This document shows positions 33,094 through 41,135 of a stretch of DNA of 64,000 bases, piece after piece. Position numbers and translations under genes: made by a program. The notes under the pieces are model-generated. The model was not told the origin of the DNA, made no database searches, and saw nothing but the letters and a program-made list of their open reading frames with translations. This DNA comes from an uncultured Gemmata sp. (GTDB taxonomy: Bacteria; Planctomycetota; Planctomycetia; Gemmatales; Gemmataceae), in the NCBI GenBank assembly GCA_937924775.1, contig CALDUT010000002.1:62001-126000 (forward strand), written 5' to 3'. The first letter of the stretch is position 1. The number at the start of each line of letters is the position of its first letter.

Positions 33094-34122
33094 TCAACGA
33101 TTTGCGTATCGTTTACGAATCGAGGGGATGAGGTATTCGCCGAACGCGGTGGCGAAATCGTAGCTGGGTGCATGGCCCCAGTCGGCCCGGGCCGCGGAAT
33201 CGTCGACATCCGCAGGCCACGAATCCACGATCCCCTGGCGTTTCTCATCAACTTTGGTGCGAATGTCGGCATGCGGGAAGGCCGAGCGCACCACTGCTTC
33301 AATCTCTGCGGCGCTGGGGGCAAAGGCCCCGATGTTGTACACGGTCCGGGTCAACCGCTCCCGGGGAGCAGTCATCAGCCGCACGATGGCATCAACAGCA
33401 TCCGGCATGGCCATGAAGGGGATTTGGGTGTCGGGCCGTACGAAGCACTCGTAGCGTTGTCCGCTGGCGGCTGCGTGGATCATTTCCGGGGCGTAATCGC
33501 TGGTTCCGCCGCTGGGGACCGTTTCCGCGGAAATCAGGCCGGGGAAACGAATGCAGCGGAAGTCAACTTTTCCGCTCATCGTTTCCGCTGCCAGTTGCTT
33601 GTAGTGCCGGGCGTAGTAACGACCCAAATGCTCACAGTAGAGTTTGTTTGCCCCATAGATCGTTGTGGGGACGTTGAAGTCATCTTCCTTGACCTTCCCT
33701 GCCCGGGCTTTCACTTCGCGGTTGGGTAAACCAAACGCCGCAATACTCGACGGATAGAAGAACAGAACCGGCCGTCCGTGACTTTCTCCCTGTTTTTGGG
33801 CGAATTCCAACACGTTGAGCGCTCCTTCGACATTCACTTTATGGGCCAGAGCGGGGGTGAATTCACTACGCGTGGACAGCAGCGCGGCTAAATGATACAC
33901 GCGATCCACCTCGTATTGCGCAAGGATCCCATCGAGAAGGGCGGTATCGAGGATGGAGCCAGTGATCGCTTGGCGCACCTTTGCCGCGGATTCCGGGGGC
34001 AGAGGGTTCAAATCGAGGGTGACGATCGGCCGCTCGGGGTCGTCGGCCGCGAGGCGGGCGATGAGGGCGTGTCCGATTTCTCCGGAAGCCCCGGTGATGA
34101 AGACAGAGGGTTTGCGTGACAT
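33094..34122 (-). CDS. L-threonine 3-dehydrogenase, SDR type
   Basis: A 342-residue NAD-dependent enzyme of the extended SDR fold. It has the TGASGEIG nucleotide loop at about 10-17, the catalytic YPSSIAAFG and YGANK motifs, and the stretches RFPGLISAETVPSGGTSDYAP and VRPDTQIPFMAMPDA that mark the epimerase-like threonine dehydrogenase branch. That enzyme oxidises threonine to 2-amino-3-ketobutyrate. The partner ligase (kbl) is not in the window. Only a weak ribosome site is visible before the ATG at 34122. Confidence 0.82.
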   Translation of the reverse strand: MSRKPSVFITGASGEIGHALIARLAADDPERPIVTLDLNPLPPESAAKVRQAITGSILDTALLDGILAQYEVDRVYHLAALLSTRSEFTPALAHKVNVEGALNVLEFAQKQGESHGRPVLFFYPSSIAAFGLPNREVKARAGKVKEDDFNVPTTIYGANKLYCEHLGRYYARHYKQLAAETMSGKVDFRCIRFPGLISAETVPSGGTSDYAPEMIHAAASGQRYECFVRPDTQIPFMAMPDAVDAIVRLMTAPRERLTRTVYNIGAFAPSAAEIEAVVRSAFPHADIRTKVDEKRQGIVDSWPADVDDSAARADWGHAPSYDFATAFGEYLIPSIRKRYANR

Positions 34123-34167
34123 GAAGCGTATGATATTAACACTTCCGCCACGGCCACGGCCGGCCCG

Positions 34168-34524
34168 CTATTTCTTCGCGGCGAGCCATTCAGCCAGCTC
34201 TTGAATTTGCGCTTCGGTCAGTTTGTCTTTGAAGGCCGGCATCAGGCGGGCTTTGGGGTCCACGCTTCTGGGGTCGCGGATCCACGCGGCGAAGTATTCG
34301 GCATTGCGCCCTTTGTAGCTGCCGACATGGGACAGATCCGGACCACGCGAACCCATCCCCTTCGATGGCCCCCCTGGCTCACCGCCGCGGGCGTGGCACT
34401 GGGCACAATGGAGCAGATAGATTCCCTCCGGCCCGCTGACCGGAGGCTCTGCCGGCCCGCAACCGCCCATCAACCCCCATCCGGCACACGCCACGACAAT
34501 CCCGGTTAGCATGCGAACCAACAT
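34168..34524 (-). CDS. lipoprotein cytochrome c (single heme)
   Basis: A 118-residue exported electron carrier. The signal ends in a lipobox (LMGGC, Cys22), so it is probably lipid-anchored. A single heme site CAQCH lies at 40-44, and the distal methionine is likely in LMPAF near 94. GAGGG precedes the ATG. It lies 45 bases upstream of the threonine dehydrogenase gene on the same strand and downstream of the DUF6807 gene; it may be read with either. The redox partner is unknown. Confidence 0.87.
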   Translation of the reverse strand: MLVRMLTGIVVACAGWGLMGGCGPAEPPVSGPEGIYLLHCAQCHARGGEPGGPSKGMGSRGPDLSHVGSYKGRNAEYFAAWIRDPRSVDPKARLMPAFKDKLTEAQIQELAEWLAAKK

Positions 34525-34599: not shown

Positions 34600-35514
34600 T
34601 TAAGTCTTCCGGCGGACGCCAAACGCGGTGTGTTTGGTGGGTTTGGCAACCAGTTCGAACGGGGGGAGTTTGTCGAATTCTTGGGCGATTTCCGCGGCTC
34701 GTTGCGCATTCAACGAACCGCGATGGGCATGCAGCAGGTAACGCAACGTCAGCGGCTCTTTCTTAGTAGTCGTTCGTGGTCCAGCAAAGCAGACAGAAGC
34801 GGCCATCCAACCATCTTCGCGAACGTGCCACGCCGACGGATGGCCGGGATTGGTGGCGTGGTCGAAGTAGGTGAGGCCCTCGCGGTGGCCGCCAGGTTGT
34901 TCGCCGCTGTAATCCATCCACTGGGCCTTTTGCCCAAAGATCGCGGCTTCTCCTTTCGCGCCGGTGCTACTGGTTAAGGTTCCACCACCGAAGAACCCAG
35001 AAATCACTTTGGCGACCCGCACGGCGAAAAAACCGAAGTTGGTTTTGCCAAATTCCAATGTTTCCGCGGTGGGGCGAAAGACGGTATGAATTTCCAGAAA
35101 CGTTTCGTTCTCCGGGCCGGGGCGAAGAGCTGCCAACAGGTCCTGCTCCAACAATTCTTGGGGGTCGTGACCGTCGAACCAACCTAAGCGCACGGCAAGG
35201 ATGGCTTGCGTGTCGCCATCCTGATAAGCCAGCCATTGTTTCTGTCGGATGCGAGCGGCTGTGAGGTCGGTCCAAAAATTCACCCCGCTGACTTTCTCGT
35301 GACCAAACCAAATCGACCGGTGATGCTCATGGTCGGGGGCCCCGGGGTGGCCCATTCGCGTTAGAGAAAGCCCCGACGACGGACCGAGCAAAGGGTAGAA
35401 GAAAGGGCGGGGATAAAGCTCGCTATAATGCCAACGCAACCGCTCAGAACCATCCACACGAAAACTCACCTGATGGTCCGGCAGCGGCAAGAGGGTACAA
35501 CGTGGAGTCGGCAT
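34600..35514 (-). CDS. DUF6807 (PmoA-like) protein
   Basis: A 304-residue protein matching the family once called methane oxygenase PmoA (PF14100, now DUF6807): HPGAPDHEHHRSIWFGHEKVSGVNFW in outline, then GQKAQWMDYSG, FDHATNPGHPSAWHVR and RYLLHAHRG. It has no signal peptide. The name PmoA is misleading; these are soluble proteins, common in planctomycetes, probably acting on sugars or polymers. A GAGGAG site lies about eight bases before the ATG, which starts nine bases after the STM4014-type gene, so it is the last gene of that operon. It is not a usual member of the STM4011-4015 set. Confidence 0.82.
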   Translation of the reverse strand: MPTPRCTLLPLPDHQVSFRVDGSERLRWHYSELYPRPFFYPLLGPSSGLSLTRMGHPGAPDHEHHRSIWFGHEKVSGVNFWTDLTAARIRQKQWLAYQDGDTQAILAVRLGWFDGHDPQELLEQDLLAALRPGPENETFLEIHTVFRPTAETLEFGKTNFGFFAVRVAKVISGFFGGGTLTSSTGAKGEAAIFGQKAQWMDYSGEQPGGHREGLTYFDHATNPGHPSAWHVREDGWMAASVCFAGPRTTTKKEPLTLRYLLHAHRGSLNAQRAAEIAQEFDKLPPFELVAKPTKHTAFGVRRKT

Positions 35515-35523
35515 AGGTTCTCC

Positions 35524-36651
35524 TCAGGCGAGTCGTTGAGCGAATGCATCCAGTTCGATTCGGTGAATCGAACGGCCCGATTGATCCACCCAACCGGGGA
35601 AGAAATCACCAAAGGCGTTCACTTCAAGGATGTAATGCCGGTGGAAGCCCCGTTCGAAGACGAGGTCCACGCCGGCGATGGCAGAGTCGAAGCAACTTGC
35701 GGCTTCCACGCAATGATCGAGCGCATCTTGCCAAGCCCGGGGGGGAATCACACTTCGGCAATAGCGATAATCCCCGCGGTGGCCACCCAGGTGTAAGTTG
35801 GTCATTGGCCAGTGGCTGAGACGGAAGATGGTTGCAACCGGTTGACCGTAGAGGCACACGATTCGCACATCGAAGTTCTGCTCATCGATTTGCGCTAGGG
35901 GCACTCCCCGCTGGATGATCACTCCTTCTGTCCAAAGAAATTGTAGGGCGGCCGCCAGATCGGCACCCCGAACGGTGCGAATCCGCCGGGTGTTGTAAAA
36001 TTGGCCATGGATGCGTGTGAGGGTCGTCAAGCCCTCCATCGGGTATTCCTCCGGCGGGATGCGAAGAACGACAATCCCCGTGGCCGACGAACCCGTGTTG
36101 AGCTTCACATACACCCGTGGCCAATGGGCCAGTTCCTCGAGTTCGAGGAGAAATAACGTACTGTCGGGCGCAGGCGGGAGCATCTCCGGTACAGGAAGTC
36201 CGGCCCGTTTCAGTTTCCACGCCGTTTGAGTTTTGTCGAACATCGCGGCAATGGCCAGGGGGCACGCCGTGGGCCGGAGATGTGGCCGGGCATTGAACGA
36301 CTGGCGCAAGCCCCTCAGCACCCGGCGAAAGCCGCGATACATCAGTCCGGGGCGAAGAAGCAGCCCTCTGGGGAAAGTTTGTGCCTGCCAGTCACAAGCC
36401 CATTCTGTGGGATCCTCACGATGACCAGCTTCGAGCAACAATCGGGTGGCAAGATCATCTCTGCCAGGCGATTCAAAGCGCACAATCGCCGGAGAATCGA
36501 ATCCCGGCAGGTCGTCGAGGCGGCCGTCGCGGGCGATCACTTCCGCCCACGGCACGATTTCCAGCCGTAGCGAGCGGTTCCACGCGGTGGCTTCCTGGCG
36601 GAATAGCTCGCAGCGTTTCGTACCCGGGTTGGCAATCAACACCATTCGCAT
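35524..36651 (-). CDS. STM4014-type protein (ATP-grasp-like)
   Basis: A 375-residue cytoplasmic protein. The first ~110 residues are an N-terminal domain (VLIANPGTKRCELFRQEA). The rest has an ATP-grasp pattern: DKTQTAWKLKRAGLPVPEML, then VYVKLNTGSSATGIVVL as the phosphate-binding lysine strand, and late acidic ligands in IAGVDLVF and YILEVNAFGDFFPGW. ATP-grasp enzymes ligate a carboxylate to an amine or thiol. It resembles Salmonella STM4014, a member of a conserved uncharacterised cluster. It starts six bases after the WGR/LRR gene, inside the six-gene operon. An ATG two codons later is an alternative start. Confidence 0.8.
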   Translation of the reverse strand: MRMVLIANPGTKRCELFRQEATAWNRSLRLEIVPWAEVIARDGRLDDLPGFDSPAIVRFESPGRDDLATRLLLEAGHREDPTEWACDWQAQTFPRGLLLRPGLMYRGFRRVLRGLRQSFNARPHLRPTACPLAIAAMFDKTQTAWKLKRAGLPVPEMLPPAPDSTLFLLELEELAHWPRVYVKLNTGSSATGIVVLRIPPEEYPMEGLTTLTRIHGQFYNTRRIRTVRGADLAAALQFLWTEGVIIQRGVPLAQIDEQNFDVRIVCLYGQPVATIFRLSHWPMTNLHLGGHRGDYRYCRSVIPPRAWQDALDHCVEAASCFDSAIAGVDLVFERGFHRHYILEVNAFGDFFPGWVDQSGRSIHRIELDAFAQRLA

Positions 36652-36657
36652 AACCGT

Positions 36658-38085
36658 CTACTCATAATCGCCCTGAATGAGGAATTCGGCGGGTTCATCA
36701 GGATCGGATTCGGTTTCTCTGTGTTGATAATCGAGATTCACGGGGATTTGAGTATTCCGGAGAGCCTCTGCGCCCTGTTCGGTAATGGCATTGCGTGACA
36801 GGTCGAGATATCTCAGATTCTGTATGTCCGGGCACGCGGCCAGTGCTTTAGCGCCTTGATCGGTGATACAACCGTGGCGAAGGTCCAGGACTTTCAAACG
36901 TTTCAGCATGCCGCTGGAAATGATTTCCTGTACACCACGGTCGCCGAAGTCGCTCAATCGCAACCGCAGGTGGGTGAGGCTCTGCAAATGCGGTGAGCGA
37001 CAGATGGCTTTGAGCCCGACCAGAGTGATGTACGGTGTGTCGTCATACTCCAGCGCATGAGGATGACAGAGCAGGTGGGTCAAGTGGGTCAGTGACTCAT
37101 TCTTGGCCAGGGCTTCCAGGGGAAAATTCCAACCGTGGTAGAGTTGTAGCACACGCAGCTGGCGGAGCTTCAACCGGGCGATTTTACTGATTTCCTCGCG
37201 GGTATGGGCGAAGATGAGCAGTTCTTCCACATCGGGCATCTGTTTCACAAAGTCGTAGACCAACTGGCCATTGAGATGGCATTGAAAATGGCAGAAATCG
37301 CCGTAGTCCTCGTCGGCCAGCCATCCGAATTGGAAGCGGCGAACAAAGGGGAGATAAGGCCAGCGGAGGAGGATATGCAGAGGCGCTTCCTGGATGTGCG
37401 CGTCGTCCGGGATATCGGCGGGACGTTCGGCGTCGTCGTCCACAAGAGTACCGCCGATGAACAATTCGCGAACAAACCGTGTTTCCGGCGACTCCACGAA
37501 GGCTGAGGCGGCGGCGAGGGTGAGTTGACCGAAGTTGACGGTCGCCAGAACACCGCGTTTGAACTCGTATTTTTTACCGCCGGTGTGGTTGATCTGGCCG
37601 CGTCCTTCGGTTTCCGTTGGGGCGGGGAACAGGTCGGCCCACGGCCCGACCCATTGCTTCTCATGTTTCTTTAATAATTTGGCTTCTTGCTTCTGAAGGG
37701 CCTTCCGTTCGGCTGTGGGTCGGCTTTCATCTTCAAGGGCGATTTGGACGTGCATGAATTCGCCGCGGGGGTCGCCTTTCTCGACGAGGAAATCCGCATA
37801 GGCGCACCACCCGGCGACGTCGTGCGGGTTTTTCTGCAGGCTGTGGATGAACGCTTCCTCCGTTGAGACAGCCGCTTTGGGTGTCGTTTCGACGTAGCCC
37901 TTTTTGAGTTTTTCGCGAATCAATTTCTCGGCTTCGTGTTGCGCTTCTACGGCGGAATCGAAGGTTTTGGTGTGGCTTTGCCCAGCCGTGCCGATTTTGC
38001 CAAAGGTCACGGTGAATTGCTGGCCTTGTACATCGATGTTCCAGAATTTGTGGCTTTTCGCATCACTCCGTTGGAAAGTTCGCAT
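36658..38085 (-). CDS. WGR domain / TIGR02996 / leucine-rich-repeat protein (STM4015-like)
   Basis: A 475-residue soluble protein in three parts. Residues 1-75 are a WGR-like domain ([23 protein letters not shown]...[13 protein letters not shown]). Residues about 82-128 are the TIGR02996 repeat-companion domain ([30 protein letters not shown]). Residues about 250-455 hold leucine-rich repeats of the ribonuclease-inhibitor kind ([20 protein letters not shown] and [19 protein letters not shown]). The C-terminus is acidic. It lies 34 bases after the STM4011-type gene and six before the STM4014-type gene. In Salmonella-type clusters the fifth gene, STM4015, is also an LRR protein, so I infer equivalence. 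The ATG at 38085 has GGAGAA upstream; the longer frame begins at a TTG. Confidence 0.8.
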
Positions 38086-38119
38086 AGATCGGGTTCTCCG
38101 CAATGAGGTGAACGGGAAT

Positions 38120-38974
38120 TTATCGGAAGCCGCGGGGAATTCGTTCTAAAACACCGTCGCCAAAAGTTTCGTACAGATTCAGGCGATCGAGATGGACGTA
38201 GCCAATGTGGCAGCTGCAGGTGTCGTTGCTACAGGGGCGTTCGTGGAGGCTGTCGGTGAAGTTCGGGTTGTAAATGTTGCCGATCGGTTCTTTGATGAAA
38301 TGACAGCGGTAGATGGTGCCTTCGCCATCCACTGCGATAACGTTTGCGCCAGCACGGCATGTGTGGCCACGACTGGCGTGAATGGTATTGTTCAGGGGAA
38401 ACAAGGGATCAATCCGGGTGAGGTCCACGATCATCTCCGGGGTGTAGTAGTCCCGCGTGCGTTTGTAAGCGTTCACCCACAGGTACACCTCCGATGGCAA
38501 TTCACGACGCAGAGCTTCAATCTCGGTGAAATGTTCTTTCAGCCCCACCACACCGACGCTGAAACGAACCCCTCGGTGCAGCAGCTCCTGACACTTTGCT
38601 AGAAACCGCTCGCGGGTGGTTTCGCTGGGGTGGAACGTACACCACAAGGCGAGTTTGGCCTTGTTGCAGGCCTCCACCCAATCGAGATGGCAGGAGAGAT
38701 TTGTTTGAATCGCGGCTTTCCAAACGTAGGGCAACTGGGTCAAGTGGGCCAAGGCGGATTGGTACCACTTCCGCACCAGAGCTTCCCCCCAAGGCGTGAA
38801 TAACACCCCGATGGAATCACCGGTACGCGAGCCGACCCAGTTCACAAAGCGTTCGAGGCCGTGGCGATCGTGGGCCAATTCGGCGGGGGTTTCTGTGCGT
38901 TTGGCAAAAGGGCAATACGTGCAAGCGTAGTTGCAACTGGCGAGTGGCCCCCGATAGAGAATGGTGAGGTTCAT
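38120..38974 (-). CDS. STM4011-type radical SAM protein
   Basis: A 284-residue radical S-adenosylmethionine enzyme. The [4Fe-4S] cluster motif is CNYACTYC, Cys 14, 18 and 21, followed by PFAKRTET. The GGE-type region is replaced by LFTPWGEAL. Near the C-terminus a cysteine-rich tail, [21 protein letters not shown] in outline plus [13 protein letters not shown], resembles a SPASM-like auxiliary cluster domain. Its ATG overlaps the stop of the STM4012-type gene by four bases, so the two are translationally coupled. The reaction is unknown. Confidence 0.88.
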
Positions 38975-40329
38975 TGGGCTTCATACTCCGCCATCAGATG
39001 CCGGACTTGGGGGGAGAAAAACCACGGGCCCAGGGCGTCGGAGCGTTCCAGCCCCAGGGCGGTGGGTTGCCACCGACGACCGTCGCAGGTCAGCAGCCCG
39101 AAGTCCGCGAAGGTGGCCAAGTCGGGCAAGTCGTCGACCGGATTACTTCCAAAGCGTTCTCTGTAACGGGCGATGTCAAGACCCTCGGTGTTGAGGATGG
39201 ATTGCAGTAAGTACCGCCGCTTCTGCTCGTCGTCATTCAGCTGAAAACCGTGTTCGACCCGGGCGAATTCTGCCCGACAGCGCGTGAGATAGTCGGTGAT
39301 AATGCGCTTGATGCTACGGGGGGCAACGGCATAGTCGAAGGAGTAGTGCAAGCTCCGGGTGTACGACCGAGCCCCACACCCCAGACCGACCATGCCATCG
39401 GTTTGACAACAGTAATGAGGTCGGTCAGAAGTTTCTGCGGAATAGGAACTTATATCGTTTTTGGGGAAGTCGCCACGGCGGCACCGAAACATCCGCATCG
39501 ACACTTGGTCGTAACCGATGTCCAAAAGTTGGTCACGGGCGACGCGGTAACAACTCAGCCGTACGTCGTCCCACTGTTTACAGGAACGCCCCAAACCGGT
39601 CAGTGGGCGGACATATAGCGGGTACAAGTAGAGTTCTTGAGGCTGATAGGATAACGCCTGCCGCAGCGAATATAGCCACGAATCGACCGTCTGTCCTGGA
39701 AGGCCGTAAATCAGGTCGATATTCAACACCGGGAATTGTGCCTCGGCCAAAAGGTTCAACGCTGCCGCCACAACGGCTTGCGATTGGGGGCGACCGCAAT
39801 TCACCGTCTCGGTTTCGACAAATGACTGGATCCCGATGCTGACCCGCTCCACACCGCGGGATTTGAGCAACTTCACTTTCTCATTGGTCAATGTGTCGGG
39901 AGAACACTCGACACTGGTGGGAACGCTGTGAGGATCGACACCCATCACCGTTTGCATCTGATCGAACAGGTGAGCCCATTGCTGCTCGCTCAGATATGTG
40001 GGTGTGCCCCCCCCGATGGCGAAACGGGCAAAGTGGGCGTCGGGAATGGCTTCGCGGACAGCGTGGAGTTGCTGACCCAAAGCTTCGAGATACCACGTCA
40101 CGAGGTCCTCGTGCGGTTGGGCGGTGGTGAAAAGGTTGCAAAATCCGCAGCGCATCGTGCAAAACGGGATATGGACATAAAGAAAAAGCGAGCGTTGATC
40201 TTCCTCCGCCCACACTGCACGCAACGGCCGCGGGTGCAAGGACCGGTAGGCTGTTTTGTGCGGATAGGCATAGACATAACCCTGATAAGGGCTAGATCGC
40301 AGCACCGGGTGCGATTCCGCGGCGATCAT
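38971..40329 (-). CDS. STM4012-type radical SAM protein (HemN-like)
   Basis: A 452-residue radical SAM enzyme of the coproporphyrinogen dehydrogenase-like (HemN/HemW) group. The cluster motif is CTMRCGFC, Cys 57, 61 and 64, preceded by YVHIPF, followed by the SAM-binding IGGGTPTYLS and the HemN hallmarks SVECSPDTL, VSIGIQSF and DLIYGLPGQT. The C-terminal part has the usual helical domain (ILNTEGLDIARYRERFG). It overlaps its upstream neighbour by four bases and its downstream neighbour by four. Sequence similarity to HemN does not imply heme synthesis here; the context with STM4011, STM4013 and STM4014 types points to another product. Confidence 0.88.
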   Translation of the reverse strand: MIAAESHPVLRSSPYQGYVYAYPHKTAYRSLHPRPLRAVWAEEDQRSLFLYVHIPFCTMRCGFCNLFTTAQPHEDLVTWYLEALGQQLHAVREAIPDAHFARFAIGGGTPTYLSEQQWAHLFDQMQTVMGVDPHSVPTSVECSPDTLTNEKVKLLKSRGVERVSIGIQSFVETETVNCGRPQSQAVVAAALNLLAEAQFPVLNIDLIYGLPGQTVDSWLYSLRQALSYQPQELYLYPLYVRPLTGLGRSCKQWDDVRLSCYRVARDQLLDIGYDQVSMRMFRCRRGDFPKNDISSYSAETSDRPHYCCQTDGMVGLGCGARSYTRSLHYSFDYAVAPRSIKRIITDYLTRCRAEFARVEHGFQLNDDEQKRRYLLQSILNTEGLDIARYRERFGSNPVDDLPDLATFADFGLLTCDGRRWQPTALGLERSDALGPWFFSPQVRHLMAEYEAQ

Positions 40330-41135
40330 AGCTCATCCTTTCGCAAGAAAAATTCGGCGTAAGGAACCTCCCACACCACCGGATGGGCCAGGCGGTGGCC
40401 GACGTAGCCGTCTTCGCCGTAAGCGGTTCCGTGGTCAGATGTTACGATGCAGAGCCACGATGAACGCCGGGGTAATTCCGCAAACAACCGGCCCAAGGCA
40501 GTGTCCACGTATTCCAAGGCTGCAGCATGGGATTCCAGCGTATCGTCGCTGGCTCCGGGAAGGTAAAACCGATTGGGTTGATGAATCGCCGATACATTCA
40601 CAAACAGGAAGACCCGTTGATGGGACGGCAAGGCGCCCAAGCGCGCAAGTGCAAGTTGTACTTGATGTTCCGTAGATCGTGGTTCGGTCACGCCCAAGGC
40701 GATCGACCAATGGCTTTCATCAAACAAACTCGGCAGTACATTCCCCAAAGGGGTTTGTTTGTTGAAAAAACCAACTCCACCGATGCAGATCGTGTAGTAG
40801 CCACAGTTGCGCAAGCCGGTGATGATGTCCGGGGCGTCGAAAACCGCGGTGTTGGTTGTGGTGGTTTCACTGCCGGGGAAGCGGAGGGCGAAGAGCCGCG
40901 GATGTTTGCCGGGGCGTGCGGGTGTAGGGAGGAAGCCGGCAAAAAACGCCATGTGAGCCGCGAAGGTGAAGTTCCCCGGGGTATGCCGTTTTTCCCATCC
41001 CTGAGAAGGCAGCACCCGGGCGAGGTGGGGGATGCGGTGTTCGTACAATAACCGAACTGCGACATCGTAACGCAACGTGTCGAGAGTGATGAACAGAATG
41101 TCATAACGGCCGATGATTGCTTGGGCGTTCAACAT
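40326..41135 (-). CDS. STM4013-type sulfatase-like hydrolase
   Basis: A 269-residue cytoplasmic protein of the alkaline phosphatase/sulfatase superfamily, first gene of the operon. Metal and catalytic motifs are ITLDTLRYD at 16-24, the nucleophile region PGNFTFAAH with threonine 57 in place of the sulfatase cysteine, TSDHGTAYGEDG, and GHRLAHPVV. Threonine fits a phosphatase, phosphodiesterase or phosphotransferase rather than a formylglycine sulfatase. Its stop overlaps the STM4012-type start as ATGA. The start codon has only a weak ribosome site. Divergent from the DUF1501 gene; the operon promoter should lie in 41136-41359. Confidence 0.85.
   Translation of the reverse strand: MLNAQAIIGRYDILFITLDTLRYDVAVRLLYEHRIPHLARVLPSQGWEKRHTPGNFTFAAHMAFFAGFLPTPARPGKHPRLFALRFPGSETTTTNTAVFDAPDIITGLRNCGYYTICIGGVGFFNKQTPLGNVLPSLFDESHWSIALGVTEPRSTEHQVQLALARLGALPSHQRVFLFVNVSAIHQPNRFYLPGASDDTLESHAAALEYVDTALGRLFAELPRRSSWLCIVTSDHGTAYGEDGYVGHRLAHPVVWEVPYAEFFLRKDEL

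Follow-up and report, generated by a model that had tools for sequence, protein, structure and literature searches.

A multi-phylum radical SAM and ATP-grasp gene cassette with a proposed role in modifying the C-terminal glutamate of a repeat protein

An operon of six genes in an uncultured Gemmata sp. (assembly GCA_937924775.1, contig CALDUT010000002.1, positions 62,001 to 126,000, a stretch of 64,000 nucleotides that we call the window) appears to direct the making or attachment of a chemical group at the last residue, a glutamate, of a repeat protein. Five of its genes are those of the STM4011-STM4015 set (in numerical order NF038073, NF006067, NF038075, NF038074 and NF038076), four of them scoring over the curated cut-offs. 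NCBIfam names these families after Salmonella genes and gives them no functional description other than 'radical SAM protein' and 'hydrolase'. The gene set was already known by its locus-tag names; what is new is a tail ending in Glu that the STM4015 proteins share. We propose, giving it an even chance of being right, that the operon encodes a carrier-protein or protein-tail modification pathway, in which STM4014 would couple a group to the terminal Glu of STM4015 and the radical SAM proteins and hydrolases would rework this group.

The full-text literature that we searched, with subscription journals and preprint servers largely outside its scope, contained no paper on the function of the cassette. 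Two Salmonella papers list single STM40xx genes in tables (PMC3844500, PMC2784778), and no account of what the cassette does was found in two others (PMC4275035, PMC11964587). The elements of the operon are as follows.

40326..41135, minus strand: STM4013-like hydrolase of the alkaline-phosphatase superfamily, Thr nucleophile (NF038075, 415.8 bits; cut-off 250)
38971..40329, minus strand: STM4012-like radical SAM protein of HemN fold (NF006067, 593.3 bits; cut-off 380)
38120..38974, minus strand: STM4011-like radical SAM protein with a twitch-like auxiliary cluster region (NF038073, 405.8 bits; cut-off 200)
36658..38085, minus strand: STM4015-like WGR-LRR (leucine-rich repeat) protein, proposed carrier or substrate (WGR 67.5 bits; STM4015 62.1 bits, below 275)
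36661..36696, minus strand: C-terminal tail of this protein, its last 12 residues, predicted to be disordered and ending in QGDYE
35524..36651, minus strand: STM4014-like ATP-grasp protein with a RimK/LysX/ArgX-like fold (NF038074, 245.9 bits; cut-off 175)
34600..35514, minus strand: DUF6807 protein, probable passenger (PF14100, 203.1 bits; same transcription unit by spacing)

The STM4015 proteins end in a near-invariant glutamate

A scan of GTDB, with one genome per species, gave at least 548 stretches encoding a relative of STM4011 (E ≤ 1e-3). The best 80 of these, 52-84% identical, were examined, and hidden Markov models for the locus were built from the first loci collected. STM4015 and STM4014 were linked in 69 loci, the window included; STM4011 was present in 69, STM4012 in 68 and STM4013 in 67.

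The STM4015 tails, 93 distinct ones from 96 open reading frames (ORFs), were aligned with the stop codon as anchor, leaving out eight loci that were duplicates of the window or unlinked LRR controls of its genome. The last residue was Glu in 91 of the 93 tails (entropy 0.17 bits). Position -7 was Arg in 81 (0.86 bits) and position -6 was Tyr or Phe in 85, with Phe for Tyr in 16 (1.25 bits), most tails reading R[YF]xxxxE. Columns -8 to -30 had entropies of 2.4-3.7 bits, and positions -28 to -9 contained on average 6.3 acidic residues out of 20. The terminal pattern [RKWYFH][YFW]x4E, which was picked after the tails had been seen, occurred in 86 of the 96 STM4015 ORFs, as against 5 of 10,912 other six-frame ORFs of the same loci, 306 of which ended in Glu. 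Among the cassette enzymes, a terminal Glu was found in 0/69 STM4014, 2/73 STM4013, 1/86 STM4012 and 3/96 STM4011 proteins. Paralogues of STM4015 from the same locus (29 pairs) shared on average 65% identity in their last seven residues, 17% in the linker and 53% overall. Over all loci, which comprised 112 distinct STM4015 ORFs of at least 100 bits, the pattern was present in 102 and a terminal Glu in 6 more.

The window protein ends in QGDYE, and GD[YFWIM]E ends recur among its relatives, as QGDYE in locus L047, QGDIE and EGDWE in L049, and MGDME in L146. In its AlphaFold model (mean predicted local distance difference test score (pLDDT) of 87.3), the WGR and LRR parts were largely confident, with some loops lower; the ten-residue blocks of residues 361-450 averaged 91-98, and the score fell below 50 in the tail, at residues 464-469 and 472-475.

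We considered the possibility that the last 7-10 residues of STM4015 are the core of a ribosomally synthesized and post-translationally modified peptide (RiPP). STM4011 and STM4012 would then cross-link, methylate or decarboxylate this core, for example at Tyr/Phe or Glu, while STM4014 would form an ester or amide of the graspetide kind, and the product would be set free by a protease encoded elsewhere. This is the main rival of a carrier pathway, and a conserved tail on a multi-copy protein fits it; we nevertheless hold it to be rather unlikely. Tyr is replaced by Phe at -6 in 16/93 tails, window-type tails keep only the terminal GD-x-E, and the last Glu alone is near-invariant, though a cross-linked core should keep a second reactive residue. 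Furthermore, the tails have no conserved Thr, Ser or Lys as graspetide acceptor, and the five cassette genes include neither a peptidase nor an exporter.

STM4015 as a candidate substrate

The first-pass annotation of this DNA had described a complete STM4011-STM4015 set. The NCBIfam search that it proposed placed four of the five families over their cut-offs, and STM4011 to STM4014 can stand as named. The fifth protein reached only 62.1 bits against a cut-off of 275, over residues 290-468 of its 481-residue reading, and is assigned to STM4015 because of its position, its LRR homology and its tail. Read from the ATG at 38085, it has 475 residues, with an N-terminal WGR domain followed by LRRs, and it also contains a TIGR02996 domain. 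It adjoins the STM4014 gene and ends in Glu, and thus has the feature derived in this analysis for membership, that of an LRR protein next to STM4014 with a C-terminal Glu tail. We considered whether it might be an unrelated LRR protein and set this aside on position and tail. Six distinct other LRR ORFs of the window genome scored 29.5-60.7 bits with the same profile as this protein, none of them tailed, so that position and tail, not score, carry the case.

Most STM4015 ORFs scored over 300 bits with a profile that we built from 11 of them. An N-terminal WGR domain is also found in Bacteroides STM4015 proteins (Pfam), and WGR-like N-terminal parts were detected by tblastn in STM4015 of Myxococcus/Corallococcus, of one Pirellulaceae locus and of two Saprospiraceae loci. 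WGR domains, LRRs and acidic linkers typically serve in interactions, and the high scores mean that conservation across phyla extends to the folded part. Both points would suit an unmodified scaffold or adaptor on which the enzymes of a small-molecule pathway assemble, the tail being a docking motif. We regard this as improbable, since such a motif would not have to be placed at the very C-terminus and to have an almost invariant last residue, and since the adjacent gene encodes a ligase whose closest folds act on a C-terminal Glu.

The number of STM4015 copies varied between the 69 loci (one in 49, two in 18, three in one and four in one), while STM4014 and STM4011 were single-copy in 69/69. 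Because of its near-invariant Glu tail and its variable copy number beside single-copy enzymes, STM4015 looks like the substrate or carrier of the pathway. The planctomycete metagenome-assembled genome (MAG) G306, in which only one STM4014 was over the cut-off, encodes five tailed LRR proteins on five separate contigs (L153, L156, L159, L160 and L161) with two tail flavours: two end in EGDFE and YGDME, and three have R[YF]-type or related E-ending tails. In the Cytophagales MAG G300 (L155/L157), which has no STM4014 match, the STM4015 gene is split into two overlapping pieces.

Linkage and spread of the cassette

The clustering of the STM40xx genes is not a peculiarity of the window or a matter of chance. 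It recurs in other phyla, where the first-pass annotation proposed to compare neighbourhoods: by record titles and taxonomy lines, the 69 linked STM4014-STM4015 pairs fall into eleven phyla, Salmonella included (Planctomycetota, Chloroflexota, Acidobacteriota, Myxococcota, Cyanobacteriota, Verrucomicrobiota, Actinomycetota, Bacteroidota, Pseudomonadota, Deinococcota and Bacillota). The gene order of the window, 4013-4012-4011-4015-4014, differs from that of most other linked loci, 4015-4014-4013-4012-4011. L073, from a record titled Comamonas sp., has a Myxococcus-like cassette arrangement, and its genome is perhaps mislabelled.

Among 294 genomes of the window's phylum, STM4011 was over the cut-off in 8, STM4014 in 9 and STM4013 in 10. 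STM4014 and STM4013 accompanied STM4011 in 8/8; the extra genomes were G191, whose STM4011 gene is truncated where the contig stops, and G282, with a completeness of 54%. G048 (L131) held only fragments below the cut-offs (STM4011 111 bits, STM4014 164.5 bits), perhaps from a decayed cassette.

The radical SAM genes had no linked STM4014 in 15 loci, and STM4014 was present elsewhere in the genome in 13 of these cases. A tailed STM4015 lay on a contig other than that of STM4014 in G302, none was found in G303, and no tailed ORF stood beside the unlinked STM4014 of L144 and L145. In these last two MAGs, a small ORF resembling biotinyl/lipoyl carriers lies near STM4014 (L144 2593-2850, L145 303-638).

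In a plasmid collection, a protein search identified 14 records with relatives of STM4011. Neighbouring STM40xx genes were present in 8/8 regions inspected, that of Bacteroides having no annotated STM4013 or STM4012. No STM4011 relative was encoded in the 54 pattern-matching stretches of viral contigs. Megablast found no match to the Salmonella cassette DNA in 20,395 E. coli records, a near mode that distant copies could escape. PADLOC gave no convincing defence match, only weak partial ones (PDC-M51A 31 bits, WGR_XIII 14.3 bits).

The ATP-grasp protein STM4014

The AlphaFold model of STM4014 (pLDDT 92.9) had as its best fold match the ArgX-LysW complex 3vpb (Foldseek 1.6e-12; Z 23.2, root-mean-square deviation 2.9, 272 aligned residues), followed by LysX (3vpd, Z 22.2) and RimK (Z 21.4-22.1). 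The graspetide ligase PsnB was also among the fold matches, a point in favour of a RiPP-type pathway. In a profile search against the PDB, only LysX and RimK entries had whole-sequence E values <1e-3. Invariant residues in 44 STM4014 sequences include K140, K183, D261, R263, R277, T284-N285-L286, E343 and N345, the D-x-R and TN segments aligning with LysX. The modelled fold thus places STM4014 closest to the RimK/LysX/ArgX branch of the ATP-grasp proteins, by a small margin.

The segment after E-x-N is of the GDLL type in 77/96 rows, duplicates included, and reads GDFFPG only in the four genomes with a linked GDxE tail. We considered a link between tail type and ligase type and kept it as a lead only, the GDFFPG genomes forming one clade and G306 breaking a strict link.

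The radical SAM proteins and the hydrolases

In STM4012, C57, C61 and C64 were invariant among 46 sequences. Its profile matched HemN best in the PDB (1olt, 3.3e-59), followed by NocN (9p2u, 5.3e-38), a radical SAM methyltransferase whose match speaks for RiPP chemistry. The first of these matches, together with a true hemN in the Salmonella record, some 7.5 kb past STM4011, could indicate a porphyrin- or heme-related pathway. We find this very improbable, as STM4012 scored 143.4 bits against the HemN cut-off of 324.95 and 152.2 against the HemW cut-off of 205.4, and we recognised no heme gene in the 25 clusters of recurrent neighbours, each assessed by a single representative start.

STM4011 showed invariant C14, C18 and C21 in 49 sequences, plus Cys 206, 224, 248, 253 and 255. 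The signature of SPASM/twitch auxiliary clusters is Cx9-15Gx4C, and STM4011 has C206-x12-G219-x4-C224, then C248, C253 and C255, with G219 nearly invariant. SkfB was its sole PDB profile match at E ≤ 0.01 (E 0.005). Scores were below the cut-offs of known maturases (PapB 25.8 bits against 340; nif11 radical SAM 20.4 against 518.7), and yet all these weak relatives are RiPP maturases, which favours the RiPP alternative.

In 43 STM4013 sequences, D19, T57, H185, D234, H235 and H247 were invariant, which bears out the earlier description of a sulfatase-like hydrolase with a threonine nucleophile. Sulfatases need Cys or Ser at the nucleophile position, which is Thr here. The PDB relatives of STM4013 comprise sulfatases, nucleotide pyrophosphatase/phosphodiesterases and phosphonate monoester hydrolases. 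A HAD family was found in 17/134 sequences. The distance was computed for 14 of the 17; the HAD gene lay at most 400 bases from STM4013 or STM4014 in 13, and 852 from STM4013 in L067. In the Salmonella record a Cof-type HAD gene comes after STM4011, and the STM4011 protein of Bacteroides (L036 7965-9530) is fused to a HAD-IIB phosphatase domain. The presence of a HAD phosphatase beside STM4013 in a minority of loci hints at phosphate, not sulfate, chemistry and, with the Thr and the relatives of STM4013, suggests a phosphorylated intermediate in the pathway. Among the top 25 clusters of recurrent neighbours, based on crude gene calls, the HAD phosphatase stood out and the rest looked generic.

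A DUF6745 protein and a protein of about 99 residues also accompany the cassette, with 35 ORFs each (L031, L032, L033, L037, L038 and others). The former has an LRR-like N-terminus in Deinococcus and Methylobacterium; its last residue is Thr in 32 cases and Ala in 3, preceded in most by Y-x-P-x-x-[EQ] or a similar motif. The latter contains GHSH and HEEH-type motifs and ends in Asp in 35/35.

A proposed tail-modification pathway

The first-pass annotation had seen in the enzyme mix a pathway modifying a small molecule or a peptide. This direction appears right, with amendments: STM4015 is the likely substrate, STM4014 is closest to the RimK/LysX/ArgX branch, and the chemistry may involve phosphate, not sulfate. 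In the pathway that we propose, STM4015 (a WGR-LRR protein in the window, an LRR protein in most relatives) would be the substrate, with a folded part for recognition, an acid-rich linker and a flexible tail ending in Glu. STM4014 would activate the terminal Glu as an acyl phosphate, which would then react with the amino group of a small building block that probably bears a phosphate. STM4012 and STM4011 would remodel the group tethered to the tail, and the STM4013 hydrolase, together with the HAD phosphatase in some lineages, would remove the phosphate. As the five-gene cassette has no releasing peptidase or transporter, the product may stay on STM4015 as a modified tail or leave by way of an unlinked enzyme. 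The proposal starts from the observed gene set, its conservation, the tail and its modelled disorder, the copy-number pattern and the fold relations; the ligation to Glu, the order of the steps, the phosphate and the building block are what we infer.

Several observations weigh against this proposal. An STM4014 match was missing from 2/15 genomes with an unlinked radical SAM block, and an STM4015 match from 2/5 such genomes checked. The terminal Glu was missing in 4/112 STM4015 ORFs (L134, one copy in L066, one copy in L075, and L155, which is the first piece of a broken gene), and the R/Y positions conserved in most tails fit a RiPP core too. PPIP5K2 (Z 21.2) and glutathione synthetase (Z 20.9) come within about 2.5 Z of the best fold match of STM4014. 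Its similarity to LysX and RimK is weak, with i-Evalues per stretch of 0.08-1.6, and it falls far under the NCBIfam cut-offs (RimK 23.6 bits against 143.4; LysX_arch 20.6 against 275.6). No kinase, reductase or releasing peptidase of the LysW-pathway kind is present in the cassette. G306 has both GDxE proteins and an STM4014 of the common GDLL type, so that there is no strict correspondence between the type of tail and that of the ligase. Finally, a DNA search of the window genome for GD, a codon starting with A or T, E and stop found 5 places, as against 4 for the reversed pattern used as control. The operon gene is the only one of the 5 to end a large ORF, two others ending frames of 30 and 38 codons; since the pattern is no commoner than its control, this singularity lends weak support.

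Comparison with known systems

Amino-group carriers (LysW/LysX, ArgX, Vzb22) consist of a folded part with an acidic extension at the C-terminus. The last residue of this extension is a Glu, the γ-carboxylate of which bears the growing molecule, and recognition involves the globular domain plus negatively charged residues (PMC9303977). LysW has zinc-binding cysteines and ends in EDWGE, a tail recognised by a C-terminal motif of LysX/ArgX (PMC10433800). STM4015 resembles these carriers in its acidic linker and terminal Glu, in the adjacent gene for a LysX-like ATP-grasp ligase and in the presence of tailoring enzymes. Unlike LysW, the window protein has 475 residues with WGR and LRR, and lacks EDWGE and the features of a short zinc-cysteine protein. 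The partners in the LysW pathway are a kinase, a reductase, an aminotransferase and a peptidase, whereas those in the cassette are radical SAM and phosphatase-like proteins.

The substrate of RimK is ribosomal protein S6, and RimK is not known to have radical SAM partners. STM4014 shares its ATP-grasp fold (Z 21.4-22.1) but not its family score (23.6 bits against 143.4). RimK, too, acts on a protein C-terminus (PMC10092738). In the making of pearlins (3-thiaglutamate, 3-thiahomoleucine), amino-acid chemistry takes place at the C-terminal end of a ribosomal scaffold, and the route to 3-thiahomoleucine includes a radical SAM step (PMC9303977); the scaffold TglA is a 50-residue peptide (PMC9016710). 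Loading is by aminoacyl-tRNA ligases in the pearlin pathways, not by an ATP-grasp protein as in the cassette. By analogy, the cassette may be viewed as a variation on the carrier-protein idea, parallel in anatomy and differing in its parts from each of these cases.

The operon of the window and its surroundings

The minus strand carries all six genes as uninterrupted ORFs, with two ATGA overlaps of 4 bases and gaps of 34, 6 and 9 bases, which agrees with the layout first described; co-expression is suggested by this spacing. The 34-base gap results from reading the WGR/LRR ORF, listed from a TTG at 38103, from the ATG at 38085, which is preceded by GGAGAA. Pfam supports WGR, LRR, the sulfatase superfamily, Radical_SAM/HemN_C, ATP-grasp (YheC/D) and DUF6807 domains; Radical_SAM on the STM4011 protein is at 18.5 bits, under the Pfam cut-off of 29.5. 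The window genome has a single STM4011 match.

The window differs from the known set in the WGR and TIGR02996 domains of its STM4015, in a GDYE instead of an RYxAVxE tail, and in the additional DUF6807 gene. The first-pass annotation had listed the latter as the sixth gene of the operon. By tblastn, and apart from the window genome's own copy, it was found only in L047 (a Gemmata MAG), many loci being too short for a census; it lies outside the conserved cassette and is probably a passenger. Adjoining the operon on the same strand (33094-34524) are genes for an NAD-dependent epimerase/dehydratase, with a match to D-erythronate dehydrogenase below the cut-off, and a c-type cytochrome.

Discussion

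A gene set spread over many phyla and known by locus-tag names only would gain a testable purpose from these findings. With STM4015 as the likely substrate, and with a named terminal residue and a named ligase, an 'unknown pathway' becomes directly testable by mass spectrometry. If this reading is right, the concept of amino-group carriers would come to include radical SAM chemistry and a scaffold made of a repeat protein. More broadly, and with somewhat less than an even chance in our estimate, the cassette would be an unrecognised multi-phylum tail-modification system, performing radical SAM chemistry on a group tethered to the C-terminal Glu of LRR or WGR proteins, in which one enzyme set would serve scattered substrates and the tail would be a transferable tag.

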